Positions 18,333 to 38,522 of a stretch of 64,000 nucleotides of DNA are shown here, piece after piece. This DNA comes from Jannaschia sp. CCS1 (GTDB lineage Bacteria > Pseudomonadota > Alphaproteobacteria > Rhodobacterales > Rhodobacteraceae): positions 744,001 to 808,000 of the forward strand of contig NC_007802.1 of the NCBI RefSeq assembly GCF_000013565.1, in the 5' to 3' direction. The notes below the pieces were generated by a model, which did no database searches, had not been told where the DNA came from, and saw only the letters and a list, made by a program, of their open reading frames with translations. The translations under genes were made by a program, and so were the position numbers. Each line of letters opens with the position of its first letter. Position 1 is the stretch's first letter.

Positions 18333-18362
18333 CCCTGCGCGTTCGGTCTATCGACGCGCTAT

Positions 18363-19942: not shown

Positions 19943-19981
19943 GAGGAACCGGGGCGCGGGCGGCGCACCCCTTTTGGCTGT

Positions 19982-20848: not shown

Positions 20849-20903
20849 GGGCGTCTCCGATCATTGCGGCTACGATACGCGGGCAGCAAAGGGGTGCAAG
20901 GCG

Positions 20904-21593: not shown

Positions 21594-21686
21594 GCGCCGG
21601 GATGTCGTCGGCACGACGTCACCGGCCAATGGGTTGCGGGCGAATTCGCCCATGAGGGGAATGGTCTTCGGCCACGCTCATGAAAG

Positions 21687-21715
21687 GCCGAGACGATTCA
21701 AAGCCTCGGCTAGTT
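21687..21715 (+). terminator. weak terminator after the DUF1868 gene
   Basis: GCCGAG, a 12-base loop, CTCGGC, then TAGTTTT. The loop is long and the T-run short, so confidence is limited. Confidence 0.45.
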
Positions 21716-21720
21716 TTACC

Positions 21721-21744
21721 GTGTCTTCGAAGGCTTGAAGACAC
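21721..21744. other. perfect 8-bp hairpin between DUF1868 gene and sdhB
   Basis: GTGTCTTC, 8-base loop, GAAGACAC, 11 bases beyond the sdhB stop codon. It may form the 3' end of the sdhB transcript. No T-run on the minus strand. Confidence 0.4.
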
Positions 21745-21755
21745 CATTGCAGAGG

Positions 21756-22709: not shown

Positions 22710-23417
22710 TCAGGCGGCTGCGGCGCGGCGACGGCGCATGACGGCCAGAGCACCAAGGCCACCCAAAAGCAGCACGGCACCGGCGGGCAGCGGAACGGGA
22801 GCGACCGTGGCAGCGGCACCGTCGATCGTGAACCCGTCATTGGTGCGGTTGTTGAACATCGACACAGTCGCGCTGGAGACCATCCCACCGAGGTCGATCA
22901 CTACCAACTGCTCATTGCCGTTTGCCTGGCCGGACAGCGTGGCGGACGAGCCGTCGTCGGTCAGCACGGTAAAGATGGTGTTGTTCAGGTCTGCTGCATC
23001 GTTCACGGCAAAGACGATCCGGTTGAACATCGCGTTGCCAGCGAGAAACACGTCCCAGAAGATGCCGTTGGTGTCATTGGACGACAGAGCGTTTCCAGCA
23101 CCGGCCGGAACAAGGTTGCCCTGCCCGCTGAGGGTTGTGTCATTGATGAACAGGTCGGTGCAATTGCCGCCGCTCTGGGTGTTGCATACCGAGCCGGAGC
23201 CCGTTCCCGTGTTGGCCGCGAAGGTGCCAACGCTGGTCACTGTGGAAGAATTCCAGCCCGTGCCACCAGCAAAGCCTTCGAAGTCTTCAACGGTGCCACC
23301 GTTTACCGCGGTGTTGAATTCGCCAATGTTGAATGTGTTGAACGTGATCGTCGCTGCGTTGACAGTCCCGGCCGCCAAGGCCAGCGCAACGGCGCCGATA
23401 AGTGTCTTAAACGTCAT
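22710..23417 (-). CDS. VPLPA-CTERM sorted exported protein 3
   Basis: 235 aa. Signal peptide MTFKTLIGAVALALAAGTVNA is followed by an acidic, Asn/Thr-rich mature domain. Two Cys occur in CNTQSGGNCTDLF, and the phrases FEGFAGGTGWNSSTVTSVG and FAVNDAADLNNTIFTVL suggest a beta-rich fold. The C-terminal sorting tag is APVPLPAGAVLLLGGLGALAV followed by RRRRAAAA. The start ATG has AGAGGGGAA upstream. Other start codons further up lack it. It is flanked by its own terminator and sits inside the sdh region between sdhB and the sdhA-linked small genes. Function beyond surface sorting is unknown. Confidence 0.85.
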   Translation of the reverse strand: MTFKTLIGAVALALAAGTVNAATITFNTFNIGEFNTAVNGGTVEDFEGFAGGTGWNSSTVTSVGTFAANTGTGSGSVCNTQSGGNCTDLFINDTTLSGQGNLVPAGAGNALSSNDTNGIFWDVFLAGNAMFNRIVFAVNDAADLNNTIFTVLTDDGSSATLSGQANGNEQLVVIDLGGMVSSATVSMFNNRTNDGFTIDGAAATVAPVPLPAGAVLLLGGLGALAVMRRRRAAAA

Positions 23418-23695
23418 AATTTTTCCCCTCTTTAAGCTGTTCGCAGGCGGAAACCCGCGCACTCGTTACGATATTGATGTCCGCTTAGCTGACATGTCCG
23501 TCCGATGAAAGGCTCTGATGCTGTCGATGTGTTCTGGGTTTCACCCTGTGGCCCGGTGTGCACACCGCCAATTCTTCAAGCGATTTCAGCGGCCTATTCG
23601 ATTTGAGGCGTAGTTGGATGGGCTCGACTGGAGACAAACCGTTTCCAAGACCGGCATGACGTCACGTCATTCACAGCCAGGCGCTGGCTTTGCGA

Positions 23696-24031
23696 TCAGG
23701 GTGTGCCCCGCAAAGATAGACCCACCGTCAGGCCACCGCCCGATGGGTTGGGTTGCCCGCCCATGCGCCGCGCAACGCAAGCGTGTAGGGCGTCTTCCTC
23801 TGACCTTGGGTTGAGGATATTGGAATTGATCGAGATGTCACTGCGGGCGAATGGCCCGTTGCTGCCACCGCCGATGCCGACGGACCCGGATATGCCGTCT
23901 GCCTCGCGCGCCTCTTGCTGGCACAACCGCTCTGCCGTCGCCCGGGTGGGCGGTTGAGACAGGCCGCAGGCCGAGACAGATACCACTGCGAGGAGCGCTG
24001 GGATCAGCGCGAGGAGGGGTGGGCGCGGCAT
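23696..24031 (-). CDS. small lipoprotein, last of the sdhA-linked string
   Basis: 111 aa. Lipoprotein signal with lipobox VSAC at about residue 22, then a Gly/Ser-rich domain with GISGSVGIGGGSNGPFARSDISIN and two further Cys (ERLCQQ, LHACVARRMG). Probably anchored in the outer membrane facing the periplasm. Its ATG overlaps the preceding stop codon (TGATG). It is the fifth of five overlapping minus-strand genes beginning with sdhA. I do not recognise a family. The dense overlaps argue for a real, co-translated product. Confidence 0.6.
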   Translation of the reverse strand: MPRPPLLALIPALLAVVSVSACGLSQPPTRATAERLCQQEAREADGISGSVGIGGGSNGPFARSDISINSNILNPRSEEDALHACVARRMGGQPNPSGGGLTVGLSLRGTP

Positions 24032-24363
24032 CAGCCAAGCCCCCGGAACAGACCGTCCAGATAATTGCCCGCCGTACATTGCAGCGTTGCGGGCCGTTGC
24101 AGAATATCACTGACGGTTGTGGAGGCGGTGTCTGAATTGCCAAGGGCGATCCCGCCTGCAATGGTCACGATTTCCTGGGCAGACGCGTTGTCGATCACAC
24201 AATTGGTGATCGGCGTGGCATCCAGGCCGGGGAACCGCCGTTCCACTTCGGCATTCACAAAGGTCCGGGCCTGCTGGCGCGCCAACTGGTCGGCCACGTC
24301 CTGAAAGCCCACGCAGGCCGTCAGCGGCAACGCCGCCATCAGTGCCAGCGCCCTTGCCTTCAC
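24031..24363 (-). CDS. small lipoprotein in the sdhA-linked string
   Basis: 110 aa. GTG start overlapping the previous stop (GTGA). Signal peptide MKARALALMAALPLTAC ends in a lipobox. The mature part has a helical QLARQQARTFVNAEVERRFPG and then ITNCVIDNASAQEIVTIAGG with a second Cys in TLQCTAGNYL. The ITNCVIDNAS motif resembles IADCYVSRMS in the gene two upstream and TIECAATAVV in the small exported protein after sucD, suggesting a paralogous family. Function unknown. Confidence 0.62.
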   Translation of the reverse strand: MKARALALMAALPLTACVGFQDVADQLARQQARTFVNAEVERRFPGLDATPITNCVIDNASAQEIVTIAGGIALGNSDTASTTVSDILQRPATLQCTAGNYLDGLFRGLG

Positions 24364-24533
24364 CCGGTGTATCCCACGCAGATTTCAGTGCCGGACTGGA
24401 TCGGGCCGAAGCCATCGACGCAGCCCGCCCCTTGCTGGACGCCACGTTCGTGCAAAGGCACGCTGGTGTCGCGCAATGCGTTGCAGCCCGTCACGGCCAG
24501 GCAGGCGATAAGACAAAGAAGGGATCGGGTCAT
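24360..24533 (-). CDS. 57-aa lipoprotein in the sdhA-linked string
   Basis: Very short gene. MTRSLLCLIACLAVTGCNAL is a textbook lipoprotein signal with lipobox VTGC at residues 14-17, leaving a mature peptide of about 40 residues with two Cys (GAGCVDGF, TEICVGYTG) that could form a disulfide. It overlaps both neighbours by four bases (ATGA and GTGA). Such short coupled lipoproteins are easily missed by gene finders. Function unknown. Confidence 0.6.
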   Translation of the reverse strand: MTRSLLCLIACLAVTGCNALRDTSVPLHERGVQQGAGCVDGFGPIQSGTEICVGYTG

Positions 24534-24820
24534 TGGATTACTCCGGCTGTGTTCAATACTCTGATTTCGCAATCGATGGCGGCGTCCGGCGCGTCGATCA
24601 GAACCCTGTTCAGGTCGATGTGATTGGAGGCCTCCAGCAGATCTTGCAGGCCACCCGGAGACATCCGACTGACGTAGCAATCCGCGATCGCGGCGTTGTC
24701 CTCCGCACTCAGATCGGGATCCGTGCTGTGACGCAAGAAGCTCTCCAACGCGGCCTGTTGCAGGGGCTGCGCTGCCACGGGTGTGGTACAGATCAACGCA
24801 AGGACCCCCATGGCGCGCAT
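24530..24820 (-). CDS. small exported protein directly coupled to sdhA
   Basis: 96 aa with a Sec signal peptide ([18 protein letters not shown]). The mature domain of about 78 residues contains an acidic DNAAIADCYVSRMSPGGLQDLLEA and a second Cys in AAIDCEIRVL, which may pair in the periplasm. Its ATG overlaps the sdhA stop codon (TGATG), so it should be translated with sdhA. No known family. Possible complex II assembly role is pure inference from coupling. Confidence 0.62.
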   Translation of the reverse strand: MRAMGVLALICTTPVAAQPLQQAALESFLRHSTDPDLSAEDNAAIADCYVSRMSPGGLQDLLEASNHIDLNRVLIDAPDAAIDCEIRVLNTAGVIQ

Positions 24821-26640
24821 CAATAGACCCGCGCCTTGGGCTTGATCTTGTCCATGTCGATCCCGCCCTCATTATGGCCGATCAGTGGGGACAGGCCAAC
24901 GTCACGGTAGCTGAGGTCGACCTTGTTGCCATCGACCATCGCCAGCGAATGCTTGCGCCAGTCTACGTCGTCACGGTCTGGATAATCCTCATGGGCATGG
25001 GCACCCCGGCTTTCCTTGCGCGCCTCTGCACCTGCAATCGTGGCCAGAGCGTTGGGCATCAGGTTGGTCAGCTCCAGCGTCTCCATCAGGTCGGAGTTCC
25101 AGATCATCGACCGGTCGGTGACGGCCACATCGTCCATCTTGCCCGCCACACCGGTCATCTTTTCCAGCCCCTCGGCGAGTGTCTTGTCGGTGCGGAAGAC
25201 GGCAGCATCGGCCTGCATGGTCTTCTGCATCTCCAACCGCAATTCCGCCGTGGGTGTGCCGCCATCGGCATGGCGCACGTCGTCAAACCGCGCCAGCGCC
25301 TTGTCGATCTGGTGCTGGGGCACGTCGGGATTCTTGGCGTTGGGATCGACGATTTCACCCGCCTTGATCGCGGCGGCGCGGCCAAAGACGACTAGGTCGA
25401 TCAGCGAGTTGGAGCCCAGACGGTTCGCCCCATGAACGCTTGCGCAGCCCGCCTCGCCCACAGCCATCAGGCCGGGGACGGTCTTCATCGGATCATCGGC
25501 GGTGGGGTTCAGCACCTCCCCCAGATAATTCGTGGGGATACCGCCCATGTTGTAGTGGACCGTCGGCAGAACCGGGATCGGTTCCTTCGTCAGGTCGACC
25601 CCCGCAAATATCCGCGCGGACTCAGAGATCCCCGGCAGGCGCAGGTCCAGCGTTTCCTTCGGCAGGTGGTTGAGGTGCAGGTGGATGTGATCCCCATTCT
25701 CGCCAACGCCGCGGCCGTCGCGGATCTCCATCGTCATGCAACGCGACACCACATCGCGCGACGCGAGGTCCTTGTAGGTGGGCGCATAGCGTTCCATGAA
25801 TCGCTCGCCCTCGGAGTTCGTCAGATAGCCGCCTTCGCCCCGCGCGCCCTCGGTGATCAGGCAGCCGGCGCCGTAGATGCCGGTGGGGTGAAATTGTACG
25901 AATTCCATGTCTTGGAGCGGCAGACCCGCCCGAGCGACCATGCCGCCGCCGTCGCCGGTGCAGGTATGGGCGCTTGTGGCGCTGAAGTAAGCACGACCAT
26001 AACCGCCCGTCGCCAGAACGGTCATCTTGGAGTGGAAGACGTGCATGGTGCCGTCGTCCAGTTTCCAGGCCACGACGCCGACGCATTGGCCTTCATCATC
26101 CATCAACAGATCAGTGGCGAAATATTCGATGAAGAATTCCGCGTCGTTCTTCAGGGATTGGCCATAGAGCGTGTGCAGGATTGCGTGCCCCGTCCGGTCG
26201 GCGGCGGCACAGGTGCGCTGCACGGGGGGGCCTTCGCCGAATTCGGTGGTGTGGCCGCCGAAGGGGCGCTGGTAGATCTTGCCTTCTTCGGTGCGGGAAA
26301 ACGGCACGCCGTAATGCTCCAGCTCATAAACCGCCTTGGGGGCTTCGCGCGCGAGGTATTCCATCGCGTCCGTGTCACCCAACCAGTCCGAGCCCTTCAC
26401 GGTGTCGTACATGTGCCAGTGCCAATGGTCCGGACCCATGTTGCCAAGGCTCGCCGCGATGCCGCCTTGCGCGGCCACGGTGTGGGAGCGGGTCGGGAAC
26501 ACCTTGGAGATACAGGCCGTCTTCAGGCCTTGTTCCGCCATGCCAAGCGTTGCCCGCAAGCCAGAGCCACCGGCACCCACGACCACTACGTCATAGGTGT
26601 GGTGGGTCAGGGCGTAGGCGGGGGAAGTGGTATCTTTCAT
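24820..26640 (-). CDS. sdhA: succinate dehydrogenase flavoprotein subunit
   Basis: Catalytic subunit of complex II, oxidising succinate to fumarate with covalently bound FAD. 606 aa, normal length. Visible: FAD-binding [21 protein letters not shown] near 20, the flavinylated His in [16 protein letters not shown] (about 53), the substrate-site region [25 protein letters not shown] (about 245), HLHLNHLP, and the C-terminal [22 protein letters not shown]. Starts 10 bases after sdhD and its stop overlaps the small exported-protein gene. The order sdhC-sdhD-sdhA is conventional; sdhB has been displaced. Confidence 0.97.
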
Positions 26641-26650: not shown

Positions 26651-27022
26651 TCAAAGCGCGATTTGCATCAGGGCCACAAGGCCGCCAGCGGCCAGCCCGT
26701 AGCTGAGTATGGTGGTCACGATGATCGAGACCTTTTTGGTCAGCCCGTGGGTGTAATCTTCCAGCAGGGTCTGCATCCCATAACGTAGGTGGTGCATGCC
26801 CACGACAAGGTAGGCCGCGACGATCAGCGCAGGCACGGGCTTGCCGAGCGTGGCGATGACGTCGGCGTGGTCGCTGCCAAGGGCGCTGCCGATGATGGCC
26901 AGAAAGAACGGCGTGAGGATCAGAAGCGCCACGGAGGTGACGGTCATCGTCCAGTGCTGCGCGGTGCCCCCCTTGGCGGAGCCGAGGCCGGAAACGCGTT
27001 TGCGGTCGGTTACATATGCCAT
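26651..27022 (-). CDS. sdhD: succinate dehydrogenase membrane anchor subunit
   Basis: 123 aa, three transmembrane helices (about 28-48, 60-78, 98-118). With SdhC it binds heme b and ubiquinone. The motif [18 protein letters not shown] contains the conserved H...G....EDY of SdhD, including the likely heme-ligand His. It lies 12 bases downstream of sdhC and 10 upstream of sdhA in the sdhCDA transcript. Confidence 0.92.
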
Positions 27023-27034: not shown

Positions 27035-27418
27035 TTAAATCGCGATGAGCGTCAGGACGGTGAGCACAACGGAGCCGATCAGCATGCCCCAGCCCATCTT
27101 GTCGGACGTGTCGGCATCAAGGCCATAGCCCGCGTCCCAGATCAGGTGCCGCAGTCCGCCAAGAGCGTGGTACCAAAGGCCAAGGACGGAGAGGCTCATG
27201 ACAATATCGCCAAGGACGCTGGTGACCCATCCATCGACGGTCGCAAAATACTCTGGCCCCGAGGCCGCGGCCATCAGCCACCAGACCACAAGCACCGCAG
27301 AGACCAGCATGGCGTTGCCGGTGATGCGCACAAGGATCGAGGTGATGGAATTCAGCTGTGGTTTGTAAATCGTCAGGTGAGGTGAAAGCGGGCGATTGCC
27401 GCGGTTGACGTCGGCCAT
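27035..27418 (-). CDS. sdhC: succinate dehydrogenase cytochrome b556 subunit
   Basis: 127 aa, three transmembrane helices. The family signature RPLSPHLTIYKPQLNSI near the N terminus (quinone-site Ser/Arg region) and LWYHALGGLRHLIWD (about 75-90, heme-ligand His) are both clear. The start is the ATG at 27418 preceded by AAGGGGGA; the frame runs 58 codons further up through the operator region without homology. First gene of sdhCDA. Two TGTGATCACA palindromes lie about 145-175 bases upstream. Confidence 0.94.
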   Translation of the reverse strand: MADVNRGNRPLSPHLTIYKPQLNSITSILVRITGNAMLVSAVLVVWWLMAAASGPEYFATVDGWVTSVLGDIVMSLSVLGLWYHALGGLRHLIWDAGYGLDADTSDKMGWGMLIGSVVLTVLTLIAI

Positions 27419-27560
27419 GGCTAGAGTCCCCCTTGATGTGCCGTCAGGTCTGGCTTGTTCCGGTCGCTGCGAACAGGAGTAGTGGGGATTTCCGGCGTAG
27501 TCACGCATTTGGGGCATAAAATTATCGGGAAGTGTGGGGCTTAACGCCGCAGAATGACCG

Positions 27561-27595
27561 CCTGTGATCACAGATTTGGAGAGTGTGATCACAGG
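27561..27595. promoter_or_regulatory. tandem TGTGATCACA operator upstream of sdhC
   Basis: Two perfect 10-bp palindromes TGTGATCACA at 27563-27572 and 27584-27593, 21 bp apart start to start (two helical turns). Flanking bases extend the pair into a 12-bp inverted repeat (CCTGTGATCACA ... TGTGATCACAGG). The same arrangement and spacing occur before sucC. Confidence 0.75.
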
Positions 27596-27603
27596 GCGGG
27601 AGG

Positions 27604-28128
27604 CTACGGGCAGGCGAGTTGGAAAAGTGCTGCGGGTGGATCATCCCGGGTAGGGCCGATGTAGGACACGCTGCAATCGCCCGTTCCCACGTCCACCTGC
27701 CATCCGGGTCTTGCGGGATAGCTATCGCCAGCAAAGCCAATATTCGCGTTGGGCGGAAAGCTGTTCCAACTTACCAGCGTCGCCCGGATTAAGCCCCCAT
27801 CCGGCAGGCGCAGTTCCACGGTTTCGCCGGGGCGGGCTTCGGCAATTCCACCAAGCGCGCTGATCTCTTCCGACGACAGCGCATTGAGGTTGCGCGCCAG
27901 GAGCCCGGCCACCGGTTGCGCGGCCCCGGCCACGCGGGCCTGGACTTCGGGCGCGCTGAGGTCCACCCGGCCCCCGTCGATCGCGTCCCGAATGCCGTTC
28001 AAGGCGGCAACGACGTCATCGGCATTGTCGATGGGGCTGGGTTGCATCAATTGCCAGACGGCCACGGCGGCAGCGACCGCGCCGCTTGCTCCGCCAAGCA
28101 ATGTTCCTGCGTTTACCAATCGCGACAT
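27604..28128 (-). CDS. hypothetical membrane-anchored protein, 174 aa
   Basis: Unrecognised. An N-terminal hydrophobic segment (about 5-27, GTLLGGASGAVAAAVAVWQLM) probably anchors it, with the rest exported. A helical middle (NADDVVAALNGIRDAIDGG, APEVQARVAGAAQPVAGLL) precedes a beta-rich C-terminal domain with two Cys (GTGDCSVSYIG, LFQLACP). It lies between the sdhC operator and mch on the same strand; its stop is only about 10 bases from the nearer TGTGATCACA site. Confidence 0.6.
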   Translation of the reverse strand: MSRLVNAGTLLGGASGAVAAAVAVWQLMQPSPIDNADDVVAALNGIRDAIDGGRVDLSAPEVQARVAGAAQPVAGLLARNLNALSSEEISALGGIAEARPGETVELRLPDGGLIRATLVSWNSFPPNANIGFAGDSYPARPGWQVDVGTGDCSVSYIGPTRDDPPAALFQLACP

Positions 28129-28188
28129 GCGCTGCCTCCCGGTTCTGAGGCAACGCTAGAAAAGCCGGCATGTGTTGGCAAGCGTGCG

Positions 28189-29220
28189 CTAGCGCGGGAT
28201 CAGCGCCCAGTAATCCAGATCCAGCAGCACATCGGACAGGTATTTGCCATCCTCACCGCGCAGCGCGCCTGCCGCGCCTTTCGTTGCAACAAGGCGCAGG
28301 CGCAGGGCCCCGACATGGGGATTGGTGGTTTCGGCCGTATCCAGAACCTCGGACCAGGCGCGGATGGTGTCACCGGCCATGGCGGGGTTGGCGTGGGCGC
28401 CCGCATTGATCGCCGCGAGAAGTTGCGCGTTGGCGAGGCCATTGAAGGACAGGGCCCGCGCGAGGCTGATGATGTGGCCGCCATAGATCAGCCGCTTGCC
28501 GTCAGGCCGCGCGGTCACGTCAAAGTGGACCTTCGCGGTGTTCTGCCAGAGGCGCGTGGCCATCATGTGCTCGGGGTCTGTCAGGGTGACACCATCGACG
28601 TGGTCGATGATTTCGCCCACCGCATAATCGCCATAGCGGTGCGGCTCTCCGGCGGCGGCAAAGTCGTAGTTGGACCAATCAAGGTCATCGGGAATGTGCA
28701 GGGCGTCGGCGGACACCACCTTGGCCAGATCGGGCACCACCGCCTCGGGCGCAGGCGCGGCGGTGTCGCGTTTGCGCACCATAACCCAGCGGACATATTC
28801 CAGCACGGGCACGTCGACGTTGGAAAACCCGCGCGTGCGGACCCAGACGATGCCGGTTTTGCCGTTAGAATTCTGTTTCAGACCAATGATCTCGGACCGG
28901 GCGTGGATGGTATCGCCGGATTCAACGCGGGCCAGAAACCGCCCCTCGGCGTAGCCAAGATTGGCCACGGCATTCAGGGAAATATCGGGGACCGTTTTGC
29001 CGAACACGGTGTGGAACGTGATCAGATCGTCCATCACCGGGTTGCGCAGCGACGAGCCGGGAGACGCAAAATCCCACGAGCTTTGAAGCGCGAAACGGGG
29101 GCCGTAGAGGGCCTGATACATCGCCACATCACCATCATGGAGCGTGCGCGAGGTCGCATGATGCAGGCTCTGGCCGACGTGGTAATCCTCGAAGAAATAG
29201 CCCTGATTGGTCTTCGACAT
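28189..29220 (-). CDS. mch: mesaconyl-CoA hydratase
   Basis: Hydrates mesaconyl-C1-CoA to beta-methylmalyl-CoA in the ethylmalonyl-CoA pathway. 343 aa with two hot-dog (MaoC-like) halves: YFFEDYHVGQSLHHATSRTLHDGDVAMYQALYG at the N terminus and the second half with YAVGEIIDHVDGVTLTDPEHMMATRLWQNTAKVHFD and IYGGHIISLARALSFNG. The double MaoC layout and the close match to Rhodobacter-type Mch distinguish it from simple R-hydratases. Its start overlaps the DUF1737 stop (TAATG). The operon order mcl2-nnrU-DUF1737-mch places two consecutive pathway enzymes together, as I recall for R. sphaeroides. Confidence 0.93.
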   Translation of the reverse strand: MSKTNQGYFFEDYHVGQSLHHATSRTLHDGDVAMYQALYGPRFALQSSWDFASPGSSLRNPVMDDLITFHTVFGKTVPDISLNAVANLGYAEGRFLARVESGDTIHARSEIIGLKQNSNGKTGIVWVRTRGFSNVDVPVLEYVRWVMVRKRDTAAPAPEAVVPDLAKVVSADALHIPDDLDWSNYDFAAAGEPHRYGDYAVGEIIDHVDGVTLTDPEHMMATRLWQNTAKVHFDVTARPDGKRLIYGGHIISLARALSFNGLANAQLLAAINAGAHANPAMAGDTIRAWSEVLDTAETTNPHVGALRLRLVATKGAAGALRGEDGKYLSDVLLDLDYWALIPR

Positions 29221-29426
29221 TACTGCTGTCCCAGTTTCATATCCGGCGCATAGGGTGCGTCGATATCCTTGGTGACGGCCTGCCCACAGCGCATCACGCC
29301 GCGGGACGCATCAAAGGACATCGTCGGATCGCCGTACAGAACCCAGCCTTTGGCCAGCGCGTCCGAGACCTTGTGGCAGAAGGCGGATGTGTCATCCTCG
29401 GTGAGCAGGCGGTAGATCATCGGCAT
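29220..29426 (-). CDS. DUF1737 small protein
   Basis: 68 aa, soluble. The pattern YRLLTEDDTSAFCHKVSDALAKGWVLYGDPTMSFD ... CGQAVTKD matches the short DUF1737 family (conserved GW.LYG.P and C.QA). Function unknown; such proteins are widespread as small orphan ORFs. Two in-frame ATG codons (29426 and 29420) are possible; the first follows GGGGAT. It overlaps mch by one base and follows nnrU by four. Confidence 0.75.
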   Translation of the reverse strand: MPMIYRLLTEDDTSAFCHKVSDALAKGWVLYGDPTMSFDASRGVMRCGQAVTKDIDAPYAPDMKLGQQ

Positions 29427-29430
29427 CGGT

Positions 29431-29994
29431 CTATCCCCAGGGTTGAACGCCAAGCGCCCAGTGGATCAGCATGACAACGACGACGATGACCACGGTGGCA
29501 ATGACATAGGTCAGCTCTTTGCGCTTCGGCGCGCGGTTCGGCGGCGTCCACGGTCCCTCCGCCGCGTTGATCGCAACCACGGAGCCGAGCGCCCAGACCA
29601 GAAGGCCGCCGAACAATACGAAGGACGGCGTGTCGCCGTTGACCAGAAGGTGCGCGATCGCCCAGAGGCTGTACCCGGTGAGCTGCGGGTGGCGCAGCTT
29701 GGTGCCGAGCCAGACACGGTCCCCCTTCGGCCCGCCCACTGCGTAGATGTAGAATGCCAACACCATCAGGATGTTGTTGATGCCGACCAATGCCGGTGAG
29801 CGGCCCCAGTAGAACGCACCTTCAGCACCCCGGTACCCGATCACCATCAGAATGACCGAAAGAACGACAAGGCCTGCAACGATACCTTTGCCCTTGTCCC
29901 CGAAGCTGGCCCGATGCGCGGGCGCGACTCGTTTCCAGGCGTGCGCTGCGACCCACAGGGCGAGCCCCGCGATAAGTAGGATCCAGGATATCAT
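29431..29994 (-). CDS. NnrU family membrane protein
   Basis: 187 aa with about five to six transmembrane helices. NnrU features are visible: an N-terminal helix with WVAAHAWKRVAP, then KLRHPQLTGYSLWAIAHLLVNGD in the middle, the most conserved stretch of the family, and a C-terminal helix. NnrU was named from denitrification clusters, and its relatives include isoprenylcysteine methyltransferase-like proteins. No nitric-oxide genes are nearby; instead it sits between mcl2 and mch with 4-base spacing or overlap, so a denitrification role is doubtful here. Confidence 0.83.
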   Translation of the reverse strand: MISWILLIAGLALWVAAHAWKRVAPAHRASFGDKGKGIVAGLVVLSVILMVIGYRGAEGAFYWGRSPALVGINNILMVLAFYIYAVGGPKGDRVWLGTKLRHPQLTGYSLWAIAHLLVNGDTPSFVLFGGLLVWALGSVVAINAAEGPWTPPNRAPKRKELTYVIATVVIVVVVMLIHWALGVQPWG

Positions 29995-30848
29995 GCGGTC
30001 TCCAATGCGGCGATGGCCTCTGATTTCGCCAGGGTGGCGCGGGCGGTTTCAACGTGCAGGTTCTCGACAATCTTACCATCCACAACGGCGACGCCTTCGC
30101 CTTTGGTCAGCGCGGCCTCATAGGCCTCAATCTGGCGGCGGGCCAGTGCGATATCCTGCTCTGTCGGGCCGAAGGTGGCGTTGGCGATGGCAATCTGCGC
30201 CGGGTGGATCAGCGTTTTGCCGTCAAAGCCAAAGTCACGTCCCTGCTGGCATTCGGCCCGCAGACCATCGTCGTCCTTGAAGGCATTATAGACACCGTCA
30301 ACGCAGAGAATGCCATGGGCGCGGGCCGCCAGAACGCAGAGTTGCAGGGAGGTCTGCATCGCATCGCGGGTGCGCGCGGTCAGATCCTTGGCGAGGTCAT
30401 TGGTGCCCATCACAAAGCCAGCCATGCGGGGCGCGCACGCGATTTCGGCGGCGTTCAGGATGCCCAGAGGCGTTTCCATCATCGCCCAGATCCGGGTGTC
30501 TTTTGCCTGCGGGTGGGCGTCTAGCAGGACCGCGAGCGCCTCAATGTCGCTGGCGCCGTCGACCTTGGGCAGAAGAACGGCCTGGGGCGCGGCCCGCGCG
30601 ATGGCGTTCAGGTCGTCGGCCCCCCATTGGGTGTCAAAGCCGTTGATGCGGATGATCTGTTGGCGCGGGCCGAAGTCGCCATCGTTCAGGGTGCCGATCA
30701 GGGTGTCGCGCGCGGCGACCTTTTCGTCGGCGACGACGGCATCTTCCAGGTCGAAGATTATCGCGTCGACCGGCAGCGTCCTGGCCTTCTCCATCGCGCG
30801 GGCGCGGGAGGCGGGGATATAGAGGACGGATCGGCAGGGCTGAGACAT
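29991..30848 (-). CDS. mcl2: (3S)-malyl-CoA thioesterase
   Basis: 285 aa, CitE/HpcH-type TIM barrel. The N-terminal CRSVLYIPASRARAMEKARTLP and the DAIIFDLEDAV, RINGFDTQWG, ILLPKVDGASDIEAL-type strands, MMETPLGILNAAEIA, GTNDLAKDL and GFDGKTLIHPAQI all fit the Mcl2 branch that hydrolyses (3S)-malyl-CoA to malate and CoA, rather than the 318-aa malyl-CoA lyase Mcl1, whose N terminus differs. It completes the ethylmalonyl-CoA pathway by making malate for mdh, which is divergent nearby. Two close ATG codons (30848 and 30854) exist, neither with a clear Shine-Dalgarno. Confidence 0.88.
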   Translation of the reverse strand: MSQPCRSVLYIPASRARAMEKARTLPVDAIIFDLEDAVVADEKVAARDTLIGTLNDGDFGPRQQIIRINGFDTQWGADDLNAIARAAPQAVLLPKVDGASDIEALAVLLDAHPQAKDTRIWAMMETPLGILNAAEIACAPRMAGFVMGTNDLAKDLTARTRDAMQTSLQLCVLAARAHGILCVDGVYNAFKDDDGLRAECQQGRDFGFDGKTLIHPAQIAIANATFGPTEQDIALARRQIEAYEAALTKGEGVAVVDGKIVENLHVETARATLAKSEAIAALETA

Positions 30849-31032
30849 GGGCATTTGGCCTGTGGCTATGTTCAACCCTTTTGGGACCACATGATCGCCG
30901 CCAGCGCAAGGGTCTTGCTGCAGCGCAGAATGACGCGCAACAAAAGTTCGCGGGAGTTTCACCAAATTTTAACTCTGTCAGGGCAGGCTGAGCGTGCAGG
31001 CACCCGGCAGAGGGGCCGCGCGATTGGAGAGA

Positions 31033-31046
31033 GGTCCACTTGGACC
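31033..31046. promoter_or_regulatory. GGTCCA-CT-TGGACC palindrome upstream of the mdh region
   Basis: Perfect 6+6 inverted repeat 55 bases before the small exported-protein gene at 31101. It could be an operator for the 31101-mdh transcript or for divergent mcl2. No regulator is assigned. Confidence 0.35.
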
Positions 31047-31100
31047 GGGTCGCTCCTCCGCTATGTCTGGCGCGTCCCATTAGCGAAAGGGACGAACGCT

Positions 31101-31415
31101 ATGAACAGATTCGCACATTGCGCCTGGGTGGCCCTGGCCATTCTGGCGGCCTTTCCCGCCCACGCACAAACCCGCGGCCTCAACATGTTATGCGCAGATC
31201 GCAACGTGATCGTGGGCACACTGACCGATCGGTTCGGCGAACAGGTCCAAAGCATGGGGCTGGCCAATCAAAACCGCATCGTGGAGGTTTATGTTTCAGC
31301 AGAAACAGGGTCTTGGACGATCACGGTGACGTCGGCGGATGGCACCACATGCCTGATGGCGGCGGGCCAGCACTTCGCCCAGATGCCACCCGCAGTGCCC
31401 GGCGAGGACCTCTGA
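31101..31415 (+). CDS. small exported protein upstream of mdh
   Basis: 104 aa with a Sec signal peptide (MNRFAHCAWVALAILAAFPAHA). The mature domain has LNMLCADRNVIVGTLTDRFGEQ, ETGSWTITVTSADGTTCLMAAG, with two Cys that probably form a disulfide. I recall similar short proteins across Rhodobacterales but no named domain. ATG 31101 is preceded by AAAGGGAC. It reads toward mdh, 128 bases upstream. Confidence 0.7.
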   Translation: MNRFAHCAWVALAILAAFPAHAQTRGLNMLCADRNVIVGTLTDRFGEQVQSMGLANQNRIVEVYVSAETGSWTITVTSADGTTCLMAAGQHFAQMPPAVPGEDL

Positions 31416-31468
31416 TCTCACCCCTCGGTTGCGCCCGTGTCGGGGCGTTGGGGCTATCGGCCGCGCAT

Positions 31469-31485
31469 CAGGTGACTTGCACCTG
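31469..31485. promoter_or_regulatory. CAGGTG-N5-CACCTG palindrome upstream of mdh
   Basis: Perfect 6-bp inverted repeat with a 5-base spacer, 58 bases before the mdh start: possible operator or an mRNA hairpin. Confidence 0.4.
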
Positions 31486-31540
31486 TGGCGTGCGGCGGCT
31501 ACCCCTCCGCGCGACATAACTCAAAATCCGAGGACATTGA

Positions 31541-32506
<966 letters not shown>

Positions 32507-32527
32507 GCGTCGTTTGAGAGTGTGAAG

Positions 32528-32559
32528 GGGGTCGGGTGTTCGCATCCGGCCCCTTTTTT
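32528..32559 (+). terminator. strong terminator after mdh
   Basis: GGGGTCGGGTG, stable UUCG-type tetraloop TTCG, CATCCGGCCCC, then TTTTTT. Eleven pairs including two G-T. Confidence 0.93.
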
Positions 32560-32640
32560 GTGCGCGGCGCGGGGCGAGATAATCCTTGCGGGGGCGGGCG
32601 CAAGTTGATTCAATCCCGCCAACAACGGGCGAGGCAGATC

Positions 32641-33099
32641 TTGGGCAAACGGATCATCACCTATGGGACGTTTGATCTGTTCCACATCGGGCATGTGCGC
32701 CTGCTCAAACGACTGGCCGATCTGGGCGATCACCTGACGGTTTGCGTGTCCACCGACGAGTTCAATGCGGTCAAAGGAAAGAAAACCGTTGTTCCCTATG
32801 ATCAGCGGGCCGAGATCGTGGCCGCCTGCCAGTATGTGGACGCCGTGTTGCCCGAGGAAGATTGGGAGCAGAAGCGCGACGACATCGTGCGAGAGAAGAT
32901 CGACATCTTCGCGATGGGCGACGATTGGAGCGGCACGTTCAACGACCTCAGCGACATTTGCGAAGTGTTCTATTTGCCGCGCACGGAAGATGTTTCCTCG
33001 ACCTCTCTCAAATCCTTCATGGAGGCGTTGCGGGACGAGCAGCTGAAAGAGGTCAAGCATCTGATCGAGACGTTGAATGCCAAGGCGTCCGGTTTGTGA
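32641..33099 (+). CDS. glycerol-3-phosphate cytidylyltransferase family protein
   Basis: 152 aa. Small cytidylyltransferase of the TagD/GCT type, making CDP-glycerol or a related CDP-alcohol. The nucleotide-binding HIGH is in GTFDLFHIGHVRLLKRLADLGD (about 8-28), and the second signature RTEDVSSTSLK (about 115-125) corresponds to RTxGISTT. KGKKTVVPYDQR matches the family linker. The start is a TTG at 32641 with GAGG upstream, where homology begins. The frame opens further upstream inside the mdh terminator, which cannot be coding. Paired with the LicD-type gene 15 bases on. Confidence 0.85.
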   Translation: MGKRIITYGTFDLFHIGHVRLLKRLADLGDHLTVCVSTDEFNAVKGKKTVVPYDQRAEIVAACQYVDAVLPEEDWEQKRDDIVREKIDIFAMGDDWSGTFNDLSDICEVFYLPRTEDVSSTSLKSFMEALRDEQLKEVKHLIETLNAKASGL

Positions 33100-33126
33100 G
33101 CGCGCGGATGGAAGGTGGAGCCAACG

Positions 33127-34002
33127 ATGGTGAGTGAGCAGGTCCGAGAGCGCGCGAAAGCGGGGCCGATCCCCAAGGCGGATTATCAGGCGCTGTTCGA
33201 TGCCCTTGAGGCCGAGCGCAGTCCACGGGACCCCGAATGGGTGCAGGCCTGGATCATCCTGCACTGCGCCACTCGCCAGCGGGCGTTCGCCTGTCAGCGG
33301 CTGTTGTCGCGCTACAATCGCCAATGTGTGAAGCGCGGAACGATGGGCGAGTACTCAGAATTCCTGCGCCACGTCCAGGACGATTTGGGGTTCTACCTGC
33401 CCAACGGCAACGCCTACACCGAGAATTTTCGCGGCGTTGATGTGGGCGAGATCATGGCCCAGTGCGGAGAGCTTGCCGCGCGATTTGCGGAGCTGGAGCT
33501 GGAGGTGTTCGCCAATTCCGGCACGCTTCTGGGCATCGTGCGCGAAGGCACGCTGCTGGAGCACGACAACGACATCGATCTGGGTGTGTTGCTGACGGCG
33601 CGGACGTTCGAGGGCGCGGCGCAGGAGTGGATCGCCTTGACCGACAAGTTGATCGCCGATGGCGTCGGCGTCAGTCGCAGCACGTGGAGCAAGGTGACGC
33701 TGAAGTTGCAGAAAATCGGCGCGTTTGGGGTGGATCTTTTCCCGGCGTGGATCGACGCGGACGACAAAGTTTACGTCTACCCCCACACTTTTGGCGCGCT
33801 GCGTCGCGATCAACTGCTGCCCTATGATCTGCACGGGCCCACGGGCCTGCATCTGCCTGCCGATGCGGAGGCCATGTTGGAATGCAATTATGGCGAGGGC
33901 TGGCGCGTGCCGAACGTGGGCTGGGGCTTTGACTGGAAGACCGCCAACGCCCAGTTTGAGGCGTTCCTGACGGCGGTCGAGGCGGCGGCTGCGCCAGACT
34001 GA
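33127..34002 (+). CDS. LicD/fukutin-type phosphotransferase
   Basis: 291 aa soluble protein. The C-terminal two thirds match the LicD (fukutin-related) fold: FANSGTLLGIVREGTLLEHDNDIDLGVLL (about 135-163) with the DxD-type metal-binding HDNDIDLG, later FGVDLFPAWID and YPHTFGALRRDQLLP. LicD enzymes transfer phosphocholine or another phospho-alcohol from a CDP donor onto cell-surface glycans. The neighbouring cytidylyltransferase could make that donor. The N-terminal 110 residues are helical and not recognised. The ATG at 33127 fits GGTGGAG; the upstream GTG at 33115 is less likely. Confidence 0.82.
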   Translation: MVSEQVRERAKAGPIPKADYQALFDALEAERSPRDPEWVQAWIILHCATRQRAFACQRLLSRYNRQCVKRGTMGEYSEFLRHVQDDLGFYLPNGNAYTENFRGVDVGEIMAQCGELAARFAELELEVFANSGTLLGIVREGTLLEHDNDIDLGVLLTARTFEGAAQEWIALTDKLIADGVGVSRSTWSKVTLKLQKIGAFGVDLFPAWIDADDKVYVYPHTFGALRRDQLLPYDLHGPTGLHLPADAEAMLECNYGEGWRVPNVGWGFDWKTANAQFEAFLTAVEAAAAPD

Positions 34003-34073
34003 CGATGGCCTGCAGTCGCGTCCCGCCGCTTTGCAACTGCGCACGGGTGAGTCGGCTGCGTCATCTGCAAACG

Positions 34074-34116
34074 GACATTTGTGATCACACAAATTTTCCC
34101 CGTGATCACAAATGTC
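34074..34116. promoter_or_regulatory. tandem TGTGATCACA operator upstream of sucC
   Basis: Sites TGTGATCACA (34080-34089) and CGTGATCACA (34101-34110), again 21 bp apart. Together they form a 15-bp inverted repeat: GACATTTGTGATCAC, 13-base spacer, GTGATCACAAATGTC. About 105 bases before the sucC start. Confidence 0.8.
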
Positions 34117-34220: not shown

Positions 34221-35414
34221 ATGAACATTCATGAGTATCAGGCGAAAGCCCTTCTCGCGCAATACGGCGCTCCGGTGTCTGACGGACGCGTTGTCACGAA
34301 GGCGGAAGACGCCAAGACCGCCGCCGGAGAGATGGACGGGCCGCTTTGGGTCGTGAAAGCGCAGATCCACGCGGGCGGCCGCGGCAAGGGCAAGTTCAAG
34401 GAAGCTGACGCTGGAGAGGCGGGCGGTGTGCGCCTTGCGAAATCCGCGCAGGAGGCAGCGGACGAGGCCAAGAAGATGTTGGGCCGCACGCTTGTGACGC
34501 ACCAGACCGGCCCCGTAGGCAAGCAGGTTAACCGGATCTACATCGAAGACGGCTCGGGCATCGAGACCGAGATGTATCTGGCGCTTCTGGTGGATCGCCA
34601 GTCCAGCCGCATCAGCTTTGTCTGCTCCACCGAAGGTGGCATGGACATCGAAGAGGTCGCCGCGTCGACGCCTGAAAAAATCCTCAGCTTCTCCGTCGAT
34701 CCGGCCACGGGCTACCAGCCTTACCATGGTCGCCGCGTGGCGTTTTCGCTGGGGCTTGAGGGGCAACAGGTCAAGCAATGCGTCAAGCTGATGGGTCAGC
34801 TCTTCACCGCCTTCCAGGAGAAGGACATGGAGATGCTGGAGATCAACCCGCTGATCGTGACGGATGAAGGCAACCTCAAAGTGCTCGATGCGAAGGTCAG
34901 TTTTGACGGCAACGCTGTCTACCGCCACGCCGATGTGGCGTCCTTGCGGGACGAGACGGAAGAGGACCCCAAGGAACTGGCCGCGTCCAAGTTCGACCTC
35001 AACTACATCGCGCTCGACGGTGAAATCGGCTGCATGGTCAACGGCGCGGGCCTGGCCATGGCGACGATGGATATCATCAAGCTTTATGGCGCGGAGCCTG
35101 CAAACTTCCTCGACGTGGGCGGCGGCGCGACCAAGGAGAAGGTGACGGAGGCGTTCAAAATCATCACTTCTGACCCGCAGGTGAAGGGCATTTTCGTTAA
35201 CATCTTCGGCGGCATCATGCGCTGCGATATCATCGCGGAAGGCGTGATCGCAGCGGTGAAAGAGGTCGGCCTGCAAATGCCGCTGGTGGTGCGTCTGGAA
35301 GGCACGAACGTGGAGAAGGGCAAGGAGATCATCAACAATTCCGGCCTCGACGTGATCGCCGCCGACGACCTGAAAGACGGCGCGCAGAAGATCGTGAAGG
35401 CTGTGAAGGGATAG
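34221..35414 (+). CDS. sucC: succinyl-CoA synthetase beta subunit
   Basis: ADP/GDP-forming succinate-CoA ligase beta chain, 397 aa. ATP-grasp domain at the N terminus ([35 protein letters not shown]), then [11 protein letters not shown] near 205 and the C-terminal CoA-ligase domain with [15 protein letters not shown] and [11 protein letters not shown]. First gene of a long plus-strand run (34.2-49.8 kb) that includes sucD, sucA, sucB and lpd. sucD does not follow directly: five genes lie between, which is unusual because the two subunits are normally adjacent. The operator pair upstream suggests regulation shared with sdhC. Confidence 0.97.
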
Positions 35415-35420
35415 AGCAAC

Positions 35421-35978
35421 ATGCCGCTCGCTCGCCTTCTGACTGCCGTCCTCTGCCTTGCGTTGATCGGGTGCGGGATACCGCCGCTGAACACTGCAAC
35501 TGTCAGTCAAACTCCGGCAGGTGCGGCGCAATTTGCTTTGGCGCAAAGGGCCGTTCAGGCCTGTGGGCGCCTGCCAGACACGGATGCAGCGCGGTCTGCA
35601 TTGGGGCGGGTTGGCTTATCGGGCGATGGTACGATCATGACGTCATCCGATCAGGCTGTCATCGTTTTAATGCAGGGCGGTCGCTGCGCGGTCGGCCTGC
35701 GGAGCATGACGCCCGAACAGTCTCATCAATTGGCGCAATCCTGGGTTCGCACTTACGACGCAATCTCGAATGCGGAGGCAGGCGACGGGCTGTCGCCTCT
35801 CGTGATCGGGGCCTGGCGCTCATTCACGCCTAACCGCAGGGTGTTCATCGCAGCGCATCGGACATGGCCCAACGAGTATTCTCAATTTCCGGATGTTGCT
35901 GGCGCGGCCGTGACCTTGAGCTACACAATCTTGGGCCCCCGATCGGGTACGCCTGCTTACACATATACGCTTCGTTGA
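35421..35978 (+). CDS. small lipoprotein after sucC
   Basis: 185 aa. Lipoprotein signal [18 protein letters not shown], lipobox LIGC at residues 15-18. The mature domain has [25 protein letters not shown] and QGGRCAVGL (Cys 48 and Cys 89), then [18 protein letters not shown]. The Cys-AL...G...Cys arrangement recurs in the exported proteins at 36092, 37401 and 40435, so I treat these as a paralogous family. It begins six bases after sucC. Function unknown. Confidence 0.65.
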
Positions 35979-36091
35979 CCGGCATGTGCACAGCCATTGG
36001 ACACCAAACTTCGGGGGCTGGACACAGCTTCCATAGAAGAAATCAAGACGCGGCGATGATCGCCAAGACCCGCGAACGACAAAGGCTAAAC

Positions 36092-36574
36092 ATGATGGGT
36101 GGACGCGACACCACCACCAACTGGCTCGCAAGATTGATCCGTTCGGCGCCCTGCCGGCGCGGGATTGGCGCAGCGATGTTTGTCGCACATGCAATTGCTA
36201 CACCGGTAACGGCACAGGCCCCATCGGTGGGCAATGTTGTTGCGGACCCGGCCGTATTGGGCCGCATGTTTGCGAACGTCTGCGTGGCCTCCAATGACGC
36301 AATCCGAGTTGAGGCTGCGCTGCGGGAGGTCGGCATGGTCGACAACCCGGAAACGGGGACGTTCTTCCACCAGTTGTTCGACATGTCCGTCAACGCCACG
36401 GGGGGCGGATGCTCCATGGTGTTTGTCACGGATCTGGAGGACGACGCAGCCATGGCGGCGTTCCAGACATCGATGGTACAGACCCACGGCGGCGGCGTGC
36501 CGACGTTTTCGATGAATGTGCGCGAAAGTGGCGGCGAACGCTACGTCCGCGCCCGGATCGAGGTGCCGTGGTGA
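36092..36574 (+). CDS. small exported protein (suc two-Cys family)
   Basis: About 160 aa from MMGGRDTTTN. The hydrophobic segment IGAAMFVAHAIATPVTAQA is the likely signal peptide after an unusually long basic N region. Mature part: FANVCVASNDAIRVEAALREVG (Cys 64) and NATGGGCSMVFVTD (Cys 107), matching the family pattern of the preceding gene. The frame is open further upstream, where it overlaps the end of the lipoprotein gene, but only from here does a signal peptide fit. Its stop overlaps the glycosyltransferase ATG. Confidence 0.55.
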   Translation: MMGGRDTTTNWLARLIRSAPCRRGIGAAMFVAHAIATPVTAQAPSVGNVVADPAVLGRMFANVCVASNDAIRVEAALREVGMVDNPETGTFFHQLFDMSVNATGGGCSMVFVTDLEDDAAMAAFQTSMVQTHGGGVPTFSMNVRESGGERYVRARIEVPW

Positions 36575-37404
36575 TGGAAACGCGCCCGTCCATGGCCGGT
36601 CCCCAAGTCATTCCGGCCTTCGTCATCAACCTCAAACGGGCCGCTGCCCGGCAAGTGATCATGCGGGAGACCTGTTCTGCGGCGGGTGTGCAGGTGCATT
36701 TCGTCGACGCGGTGGATTCGCAAACCGATGAAGGCCGCGCAGCCGTGGATCGCCTGCCGGATTTCGGCCCCTGGGGGGTGTTTCATGGCCATGACCGGGC
36801 CTGCACGCTGAGCCATTACAAAGCACTGGTGGCGTTTCTGGAAACGCCTGCGACCCACGGATTGATCCTGGAGGATGACGTTTTCCTCGCCTCCGATCTG
36901 GGGGAGTGGATGGAGGATGCCCTCTGGTGGCCAGCGAATGCCGATGTGGTGAAGTTTGAGCGCTGGCGGGACGACAAGCTGCTGGTGGCGTTGGAGAAGC
37001 GCACAACATCGGTCGGGGACCGTATGCTGCGGGTTCTGCAATCTCGCCATTCCGGCGGCGCGGGCTATGCCGTTACCCGTGCTGCGGCGGAACGTATCCT
37101 GGCGGTCGCAAAGCCGGACGTGCCGATTGACCATCTGCTGTTCAATCCAAACGTGTCGCGTCTGGCCCGGGGTCTGACGACCTATCAGGTGATGCCTGCC
37201 ATGATCGTTCAGGGAAATGAGCCGCCGCCCGAGCCCGCTGCGCCGCGTCAGGACCGGGGGCAGCTGCCTGAAAGCAAGCTGCGCAAGGATCTGTTGCGCG
37301 GCTGGCAGGAGATCAAGGTGATCCCACGTCTTTTGGCGCTGCTGCTGACCCGGCGCATCTCCCTCGAAAAGGTCCATTGGGCCGATGGAGGGAGGGCGCG
37401 ATGA
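36574..37404 (+). CDS. family 25 glycosyltransferase
   Basis: 276 aa. GT25-type enzyme, usually adding galactose or glucose to lipopolysaccharide or lipooligosaccharide in the cytoplasm. Motifs: IPAFVINLKRAAARQVIMRE at the N terminus, FVDAVDSQT, SHYKALVAFLETP and the metal-binding LILEDDVFL near 98, followed by the HSGGAGYAVTRAAAERIL acceptor-side segment. The ATG overlaps the previous stop (TGATG) and its own stop overlaps the next start (ATGA). An envelope-glycan gene embedded between sucC and sucD. Confidence 0.8.
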   Translation: METRPSMAGPQVIPAFVINLKRAAARQVIMRETCSAAGVQVHFVDAVDSQTDEGRAAVDRLPDFGPWGVFHGHDRACTLSHYKALVAFLETPATHGLILEDDVFLASDLGEWMEDALWWPANADVVKFERWRDDKLLVALEKRTTSVGDRMLRVLQSRHSGGAGYAVTRAAAERILAVAKPDVPIDHLLFNPNVSRLARGLTTYQVMPAMIVQGNEPPPEPAAPRQDRGQLPESKLRKDLLRGWQEIKVIPRLLALLLTRRISLEKVHWADGGRAR

Positions 37405-37961
37405 CGGTGCAATCAAGGACTTTGCCAATCGTCCGATCTGCGGCCTGCGGTTTTTTGGCGATCCTCTGTATCGGCGGGATCACCAGTCAGGGCCGCGCGC
37501 AAACGGGTGATGGTGCCATAGCGCAAGCTGCGAGTGAGGCCTTCGCCGCCCATTGCTTCAGCCCCTTCATGACCGCCGGGCGCGCGCAGGAGGTTTTGGC
37601 CGCCACCGGCGCGCGGGTGGATTTCTACGACCTCGATCCGTTCTCCAATGCCGCGCCATCGCCCGTCACGGGCCGCGCGGCGACCCAGGGCACGGACCGC
37701 CGCTGTGAGGTGGCCTTCGATGGCGACCACGCGGAGCTTGCGGTCAGTGCAGCCGTGGCCGGATTGCAGATGGAGGGGATCGATACTGTGGCCCCGGTGC
37801 CGGACCGCTACCGACCCACCGACGGCACGGCCCTTTTGGGGGCACTGTTCCTGAATCCGCGCCGGATCGCTGTGGTTCACGTGGGCACACGTCCGGGCCC
37901 CCGAGGGGTCGAGACCTTCATGTTCGTGGAGCGGATGACCCCGCTGGAGCCAGTGGAATGA
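37401..37961 (+). CDS. small exported protein (suc two-Cys family)
   Basis: 186 aa. Signal peptide in VRSAACGFLAILCIGGITSQGRAQ (about 11-34). The mature domain has EAFAAHCFSPFMTAGRAQEVLAATG (Cys 52) and GTDRRCEVAFDGD (Cys 102), the same layout as 35421 and 36092, followed by LNPRRIAVVHVG and VETFMFVERM. ATG overlaps the glycosyltransferase stop and has GGAGGG upstream. Periplasmic, function unknown. Confidence 0.65.
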   Translation: MTVQSRTLPIVRSAACGFLAILCIGGITSQGRAQTGDGAIAQAASEAFAAHCFSPFMTAGRAQEVLAATGARVDFYDLDPFSNAAPSPVTGRAATQGTDRRCEVAFDGDHAELAVSAAVAGLQMEGIDTVAPVPDRYRPTDGTALLGALFLNPRRIAVVHVGTRPGPRGVETFMFVERMTPLEPVE

Positions 37962-37976
37962 GGGGGCGGGCCGCAT

Positions 37977-38522
37977 ATGACCCAGGTGGATACCAGCCAA
38001 CGGCTGACGATTTTCCCAAGGGCGATTGGCTGGAAAATGTTGCTGGGATGTGCGGCCATTGTGGCGGGCAGCTTGGCGATTGTGCCCTTTGCGTGGGTCG
38101 ATCAGGCGTGGCCGATTGTCTGGCTCAGCGCGGGGTTTGGCACATTCATGCTGGTTCTCCTTGTGCTGTTGATCCGCAAGCGGGCGCGGGGCACTCCGGA
38201 CCCGGCTTTGATGCTTACGCCCGAGGGGTTGCACTTTCTGACCGGCACGGTCGGCGTCGTGCCATGGCGCGACGTGCGCAGTCTTGGATCGTTTGCCGTG
38301 AAGGGCAACCAGGCGTTGGTGATCAACGTCGAGAAGGCGGCCATCGCCAGGCTGGACCAGGGCAAGTTCTTCAAGACCAGTCGCAAGCTGGACGCCGCAA
38401 TCGGCATCCACGGTCTGACATTCTTCCAACAACAGCTGGAGCTTCCGATCCCCGAGGTCGCGCGCCTGCTGCACCAATATTCTCTCGCCCATGGCGGGCC
38501 TGCATTGCAGCCCGATCCCTGA
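37977..38522 (+). CDS. STM3941-like membrane protein
   Basis: 181 aa. Two transmembrane helices (about 20-40 and 45-66), a basic RKRARG turn, then a PH-like cytoplasmic domain beginning LMLTPEGLHFLTGTVGVVPWRDVRSLGSF, which resembles the STM3941/YdfK-type pattern (short membrane hairpin plus ... G.v.W.dI). It lies 15 bases after the exported-protein gene and 48 before sucD. Function unknown. The acyltransferase-coupled protein at 10910 has a similar overall layout. Confidence 0.65.
   Translation: MTQVDTSQRLTIFPRAIGWKMLLGCAAIVAGSLAIVPFAWVDQAWPIVWLSAGFGTFMLVLLVLLIRKRARGTPDPALMLTPEGLHFLTGTVGVVPWRDVRSLGSFAVKGNQALVINVEKAAIARLDQGKFFKTSRKLDAAIGIHGLTFFQQQLELPIPEVARLLHQYSLAHGGPALQPDP

Follow-up and report, generated by a model that had tools for sequence, protein, structure and literature searches.

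The known system closest to the one described here is the AkgR (RSP_0981) regulon of Rhodobacter sphaeroides, reportedly presented by Imam et al. 2015. Here we analyse two pairs of palindromic sites, one before sdhC and one before sucC, which head two tricarboxylic acid (TCA) cycle operons in Jannaschia sp. CCS1 (NC_007802.1, positions 744,001 to 808,000; this whole stretch of 64,000 nucleotides is hereafter the window), together with a GntR-type regulator gene of the same window. We take RSP_0981 and AkgR to be one protein, given the agreement of their targets. In R. sphaeroides, the predicted targets of RSP_0981, a member of the GntR family, are sdh, sucCD and the genes of 2-oxoglutarate (alpha-ketoglutarate) dehydrogenase (PMC4344238), and AkgR is described as a transcriptional activator, with GTGATCAC listed among its sites (PMC6365646). 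The window resembles this regulon in its GntR regulator, its targets and its GTGATCAC site, with the pairs standing before sdhC and sucC, and with sucD, sucA, sucB and lpd downstream of sucC. It differs in belonging to another genus and in the place of the regulator gene, which is convergent to lpd in the window and lies beyond sdhB in G051, a genome that we take to be Rhodobacter (C.) sphaeroides on a 100% match over 281 amino acids to its reaction-centre L chain.

Three further groups of proteins invite comparison. A GntR regulator of Pseudomonas, of the PS417_07240 type, is proposed to use the same GTGATCAC palindrome and is 32% identical to AkgR, but what is described there is one conserved palindrome at a cluster for deoxyribonate oxidation (Price et al. 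2019, PMC6365646). CceR (RSP_1663), of the LacI family, is predicted to act on sdh and mdh too (PMC4344238); it belongs to a different protein family, and its published motif, [AGT]GTT N6-8 AAC[ACT], is found in neither pair when these are read directly, which speaks against it as a candidate regulator, the role that an earlier note on this DNA had offered it alongside AkgR. Solved GntR-FCD structures (McbR 4p9f; 3fms/3sxy) have the same two domains as the window's regulator and align over most of its length (best expectation (E) value 8.2e-22), but are distant relatives only. FCD proteins usually have a metal-binding Asp at a position where the AkgR orthologs have Asn, four residues ahead of a conserved His in nine of nine aligned sequences; the His itself is kept. 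An FNR-type site, TTGAT-N4-ATCAA, was also looked for by direct reading and is absent from both pairs.

From comparison of the pair itself, its position, its spacing, the orthology of the regulator and the co-occurrence of the two, we consider it very probable that each pair serves AkgR as a double operator, at which two dimers on one DNA face would activate both operons together. The operator is thus of a known kind, that of AkgR, in another genome, and the interpretation is largely published already. The double symmetric layout is not mentioned in the excerpts of PMC4344238 and PMC6365646 on AkgR, and no paper title retrieved with TGTGATCACA concerned AkgR or TCA regulation, as judged by title.

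Paired sites before sdhC and sucC

The sites and the two genes that they precede are as follows.

27563–27572, unstranded: site 2 of the sdhC pair, nearer sdhC, TGTGATCACA, by direct sequence match
27584–27593, unstranded: site 1 of the sdhC pair, farther from sdhC, TGTGATCACA, 21 base pairs (bp) from site 2
34080–34089, unstranded: site 1 of the sucC pair, farther from sucC, TGTGATCACA, by direct sequence match
34101–34110, unstranded: site 2 of the sucC pair, nearer sucC, CGTGATCACA, with one change, 21 bp from site 1
27035–27418, minus strand: sdhC, first gene of the sdh operon (Pfam Sdh_cyt on the open reading frame (ORF) 27035–27592; start at 27418 set by homology)
34221–35414, plus strand: sucC (ORF; homologs in relatives)

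Direct reading bears out what had been noted from the letters alone: two sites of the TGTGATCACA type stand before each gene, one of the sucC sites with one change, both pairs are spaced exactly 21 bp apart, and the sucC pair is contained in an exact 15-bp inverted repeat (GACATTTGTGATCAC / GTGATCACAAATGTC). Single sites with at most one mismatch number five in the window, among them an additional one-mismatch copy, TGTGATCTCA, at 56187, where 1.88 are expected, and at least five were reached in 3 of 100 shuffles. The number of single sites alone is therefore not remarkable; their paired layout is.

The same distinction holds across the 4.40-megabase (Mb) genome. The exact 10-mer TGTGATCACA has eight copies, and the five outside the window all lie within long ORFs, none spaced 21 bp from another. 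When one mismatch is allowed, the paired pattern GTGATCAC-N13-GTGATCAC is present at two places in the whole genome, upstream of sdhC and of sucC, and a whole-genome pattern search returned no further pair of this quality at 21 bp; the next-best pairs carry two mismatches, at six places. With up to three mismatches there are 87 pairs against one for the backwards pattern, a contrast that exaggerates the excess, as GTGATCAC is common within coding sequence. The claim that the motif marks just the two TCA operons thus stands for the pair, genome-wide and at up to one mismatch; random occurrence of the pair across the genome, which would have spoken against a shared operator, is not what was found.

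The probable regulator gene and conservation of the pair

The proposed regulator and its neighbour lie near the other end of the gene block.

49841–50494, minus strand: akgR, GntR-FCD regulator gene (Pfam FCD 5.6e-21, GntR 2e-12), likely counterpart of RSP_0981
50499–51212, minus strand: ygjP-like metallopeptidase gene, upstream neighbour of akgR (Pfam YgjP-like 1.1e-46)

The akgR product has a GntR domain at residues 24–75 followed by FCD at 94–213 (Pfam) and is 75% identical to the GntR protein encoded beside sdhB in G051, where the next best match reaches 28%. That gene is located between sdhB and a ygjP-like gene, in the order sucA-sucD-sucC-mdh-mcl2-nnrU-mch-sdhCDAB and then the akgR counterpart. 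From its position, which fits the RSP numbers, it is probably RSP_0981. The gene at 49841–50494 is, by this homology, the likely counterpart of RSP_0981/AkgR, and the linking of a GntR-like motif with this GntR-FCD gene, proposed in the earlier note on this DNA, gains from the listing of GTGATCAC among AkgR sites (PMC6365646). A second GntR-FCD gene beyond sdhB, as the R. sphaeroides order would lead one to expect, was sought in the window, where 49841–50494 is the only FCD match; GntR genes lacking FCD were searched by eye only, among ORFs of at least 150 amino acids at 10000–21800.

Neighbourhoods were compared in 80 named loci, those ranked highest among 568 relatives and drawn by the regulator alone. 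In 74 of them akgR has a ygjP-like gene no more than 1.5 kb away, and lpd falls inside the stretch fetched around akgR in 36, as in the window. Outside the family, no AkgR was found in 380 genomes of the class at E <1e-50 (best match 6.2e-46, 38% identity).

The family, which from the named loci we take to be Rhodobacteraceae, was represented by a panel of 295 genomes, one per genus and Jannaschia included. A 21-bp pair with at most one mismatch is present in 261 of the 295 (two or more in 216, one in 45, by row count), and the backwards-pattern control gave 0 in all family rows. Beyond the family, matches occur in 43 of 380 genomes of the class; many of the strings look like coding sequence, the backwards control gave hits in 2 of 385 rows, and this rate, from matches counted without one-by-one inspection, is a background level. 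Where upstream regions were fetched, the pair lies 136–220 bp before the start codon of sdhC (34 of 35 regions) and 126–179 bp before that of sucC (35 of 35), figures that show position and not frequency, since the regions were picked for carrying a pair.

The named loci provide a set not picked by its pairs, examined with spacings of 8–38 bp and one mismatch allowed. Upstream sequence could be read for 5 sdhC and 8 sucC genes, and all 13 regions contain a 21-bp pair; 11 more sucC genes were excluded for too little upstream sequence. In G051, a close counterpart of the regulator goes together with 21-bp pairs at both sdhC and sucC, and the genome has one more pair within one mismatch. Conservation before the TCA operons of relatives, by which the original observation was to be judged, is thus borne out at both genes. 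Single sites do occur in ORFs, and pairs with two or three mismatches are frequent, as would be expected if the sites were chance repeats or a coding bias for GTGATCAC (Val-Ile-Thr); the intergenic position, the fixed spacing and the conservation at the same two operons leave that reading with practically no probability, and chance is rejected on the rarity of the pair genome-wide together with its presence in the panel and in the regulator-chosen regions.

Presence of the pair was then set against presence of the regulator, with a close copy defined as E ≤1e-80, a threshold chosen after seeing the results of the regulator search. Of the 264 genomes with a close copy, 262 have a pair at 20–22 bp, as do 10 of the 31 without (Fisher p 1.5e-22, uncorrected for descent); the two close-copy genomes lacking a pair, G147 and G201, are unreadable at sucC. 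G004 and G102 are counted as pair-positive on one inexact, unplaced pair each (at most one mismatch).

A 21-bp pair is absent from 34 family genomes, and 13 of these have a close copy. G147, G201 and G061 are unreadable upstream of sucC, and all ten readable ones carry two exact sites there 20 bp apart, against none of 15 readable genomes without a close copy. This comparison took in 29 of the 34 genomes (omitted: G008, G021, G122, G157 and G207), of which 16 have no close copy, and one of these, G172, gave no SucC match. As the 15 were picked for absence of the 21-bp pair, the zero shows only that a 20–22 bp pair is absent too; two of them, G109 and G017, have one single one-mismatch site each.

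Layout of the putative double operator

The two sites keep close to 21 bp: 20 bp at the sucC promoter in the ten genomes above, at both promoters in G055 and G133, where sdhC likewise has a 20-bp pair, and 22 bp once, in G061, where gene assignment failed. These spacings correspond to about two helical turns, and the match of both promoters at 20 bp in G055 and G133 looks as if spacing were fitted to the protein. The flanks add a symmetry of their own. Immediately next to the palindromes, the base tends on all sides to be T on the left and A on the right (45 sucC and 34 sdhC pairs), but at flank bases 2–3 only the outer sides are conserved, with T to the left of site 1 and A to the right of site 2. 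At base 2 the outer counts are 35 and 39 of 45 for sucC against 3 and 4 on the inner sides, and, more weakly, 16 and 21 of 34 for sdhC against 6 and 5. Conservation confined to the outside implies a two-fold axis for the pair as a whole. The spacer between the sites is rich in AT, at 0.64 versus 0.49 (sucC) and 0.56 versus 0.46 (sdhC).

Some promoters carry arrays of three or more sites: an extra one, GTGATCAC-like and another 21 bp upstream, is present at G197 sucC (L110), G177 sdhC (L127) and the sucC genes of L246 and L256, the last two having a 26-bp spacing in addition. Such additions, the 26-bp spacing included, would suit palindromes bound independently, with a fixed spacing that involves no dimer contact. 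We regard this as possible but doubtful: the spacing is held at 21 or 20 bp (22 once) while the interval between pair and start codon ranges over tens of bases, and the T/A flanks are conserved outside and not inside, more strongly in sucC than in sdhC.

The pair also turns up at other genes. In G177 (L127, pair at 2501) it stands directly before sucA, sucC being absent between mdh and sucA, and in G042 (L143) the pair at 2494, exact, spaced at 21 bp and the third in that genome, lies about 153 bp before a fumC-like ORF, a name that comes from a reading of the ORF only; by its upstream pair this ORF is a likely extra AkgR target. In both cases the operator seems to follow the heads of operons. 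These features together lead us, with somewhat less than even confidence, to a more specific proposal: that the operator may form one two-fold unit for a dimer of AkgR dimers, with outer half-sites TTTGTGAT and two-turn spacing across the family, acting as a cooperative on/off switch of the 2-oxoglutarate-to-fumarate part of the cycle and following its genes.

One promoter prediction would place the pair relative to transcription at sdhC.

27476–27504, minus strand: possible sdhC sigma-70 promoter (GTGACT, 17 bp, TACTCC), predicted only

Its -35 box starts about 63 bp away from the nearer site, counted from the centre of that site; the pair would then sit near -100, upstream of the promoter without overlapping it. 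Across relatives, 22 of 34 sdhC regions have their best -35-like box 65–68 bp from site 2, measured from its left edge, against 2 of 34 in one shuffle. If the predicted promoters are real, the centre of the nearer site would fall about 80–100 bp before the transcription start, as would suit an activator. AkgR might instead bind as a repressor, closing both operons while TCA flux is not required and releasing them when its ligand is present; the GntR-FCD class includes many repressors, as is generally known, and the promoters here are predicted only, but the position near -100 at sdhC and the description of AkgR as a transcriptional activator (PMC6365646) make repression unlikely.

In the activation that we favour, one AkgR dimer would occupy each GTGATCAC palindrome, and the two dimers, two helical turns apart on one DNA face, would probably touch each other. 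Bound upstream of the sdhC and sucC promoters, the pair would switch on the sdh operon and the operon of succinyl-CoA synthetase and 2-oxoglutarate dehydrogenase jointly, in response to a signal that may be a TCA-related metabolite. The assignment of the motif to AkgR and its activating role are taken from the literature (PMC6365646); the dimer contact, the promoter geometry and the effector we infer, and the placing of both dimers on one face is likewise our reading of the spacing.

Several observations weigh against joint activation by AkgR. The 261 family genomes are pattern counts, with pairs placed individually in a minority of them, and the sdhC region fetched as L146 lacks a pair. In eight genomes with the 20-bp sucC pair (G009, G066, G087, G151, G158, G198, G224 and G286), no second exact pair was found at 19–22 bp genome-wide, which leaves their sdhC promoter unaccounted for. 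The sucC -35 box is weakly defined, its best position, at 54–56 bp, being shared by 10 of 45 regions versus 3 of 45 shuffled. Two genomes have a distant regulator copy and no exact pair, namely G122 (52% identical, 76% complete) and G281 (best regulator match E 7.4e-62). When mapped on the best tree of SucC (61 rows), the regulator/pair label needs seven changes, two of them forced by well-supported branches, and a test on independent pairs gave the expected direction in two of two, too few for significance.

Six genomes bear on whether the pair belongs to AkgR at all. G019, G096, G114, G256, G264 and G273 keep exact pairs at sdhC and/or sucC although no close regulator was found in them, and this too counts among the adverse points; estimated completeness is 100% for G114 and 73–93% for the other five. 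Two more pair-bearing genomes without a close copy, G248 and G033, have copies 59% and 46% identical. Another regulator might therefore use the pair, with AkgR orthologs merely common in the same family, and the Pseudomonas protein proposed for the same palindrome offers a distant GntR precedent. We hold this to be very improbable in view of the near-complete co-occurrence with close copies, the 20-bp sucC pairs confined to genomes with the regulator among the readable ones that lack a 21-bp pair, the publication of GTGATCAC as an AkgR motif (PMC6365646), the proximity of lpd to akgR in nearly half of the named loci, and the absence of the CceR motif from both pairs.

Gene context and meaning for the family

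The genes presumed to complete the two operons are arranged as follows.

26651–27022, minus strand: sdhD (ORF; homolog in G051)
24820–26640, minus strand: sdhA (ORF; homolog in G051)
21756–22550, minus strand: sdhB, separated from sdhA by an insert (ORF; homolog in G051)
38571–39452, plus strand: sucD (ORF; homologs in G051 and named loci)
41114–44071, plus strand: sucA (ORF; homologs in G051 and named loci)
44078–45601, plus strand: sucB (ORF; homologs in G051 and named loci)
48435–49823, plus strand: lpd (ORF; homologs in named loci)

All four genes listed downstream of sucC, from sucD to lpd, share its strand, and further ORFs separate some of them. Inserted ORFs occupy 35421–38522 (between sucC and sucD), 45602–48333 (sucB and lpd) and 22710–24445 (sdhA and sdhB); sucC and sucD are adjacent in G051, unlike in the window, where an ORF at 36409 between them is glycosyltransferase-like by eye. 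Two ORFs, 12964–13755 and 22710–23462, the latter between sdhA and sdhB, end in C-terminal VPLPAGAVLLLG...-type tails followed by arginines, which to us resemble PEP-CTERM/VPLPA surface-protein anchors. Near the TCA block, at 9467–10813 and 14266–16230, are a crotonyl-CoA carboxylase/reductase gene (NCBIfam TIGR01751) and a methylmalonyl-CoA-mutase-like gene, perhaps from the ethylmalonyl-CoA pathway. The sdh-suc block looks inverted relative to the R. sphaeroides numbering. The window's genome also encodes a reaction-centre L subunit (G000:C2:166691–167509; 71% to the R. sphaeroides query), with matches at E ≤1e-60 in 121 of 295 family genomes.

For the family, the pair provides a simple, searchable signature by which, in most of the Rhodobacteraceae genera sampled, the sdh and suc operons are linked to one regulator, and its layout, with two sites, two turns and symmetric outer flanks, predicts cooperative binding. 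It also suggests that what was predicted as the AkgR regulon in R. sphaeroides is ancient in the family and not a peculiarity of that species.

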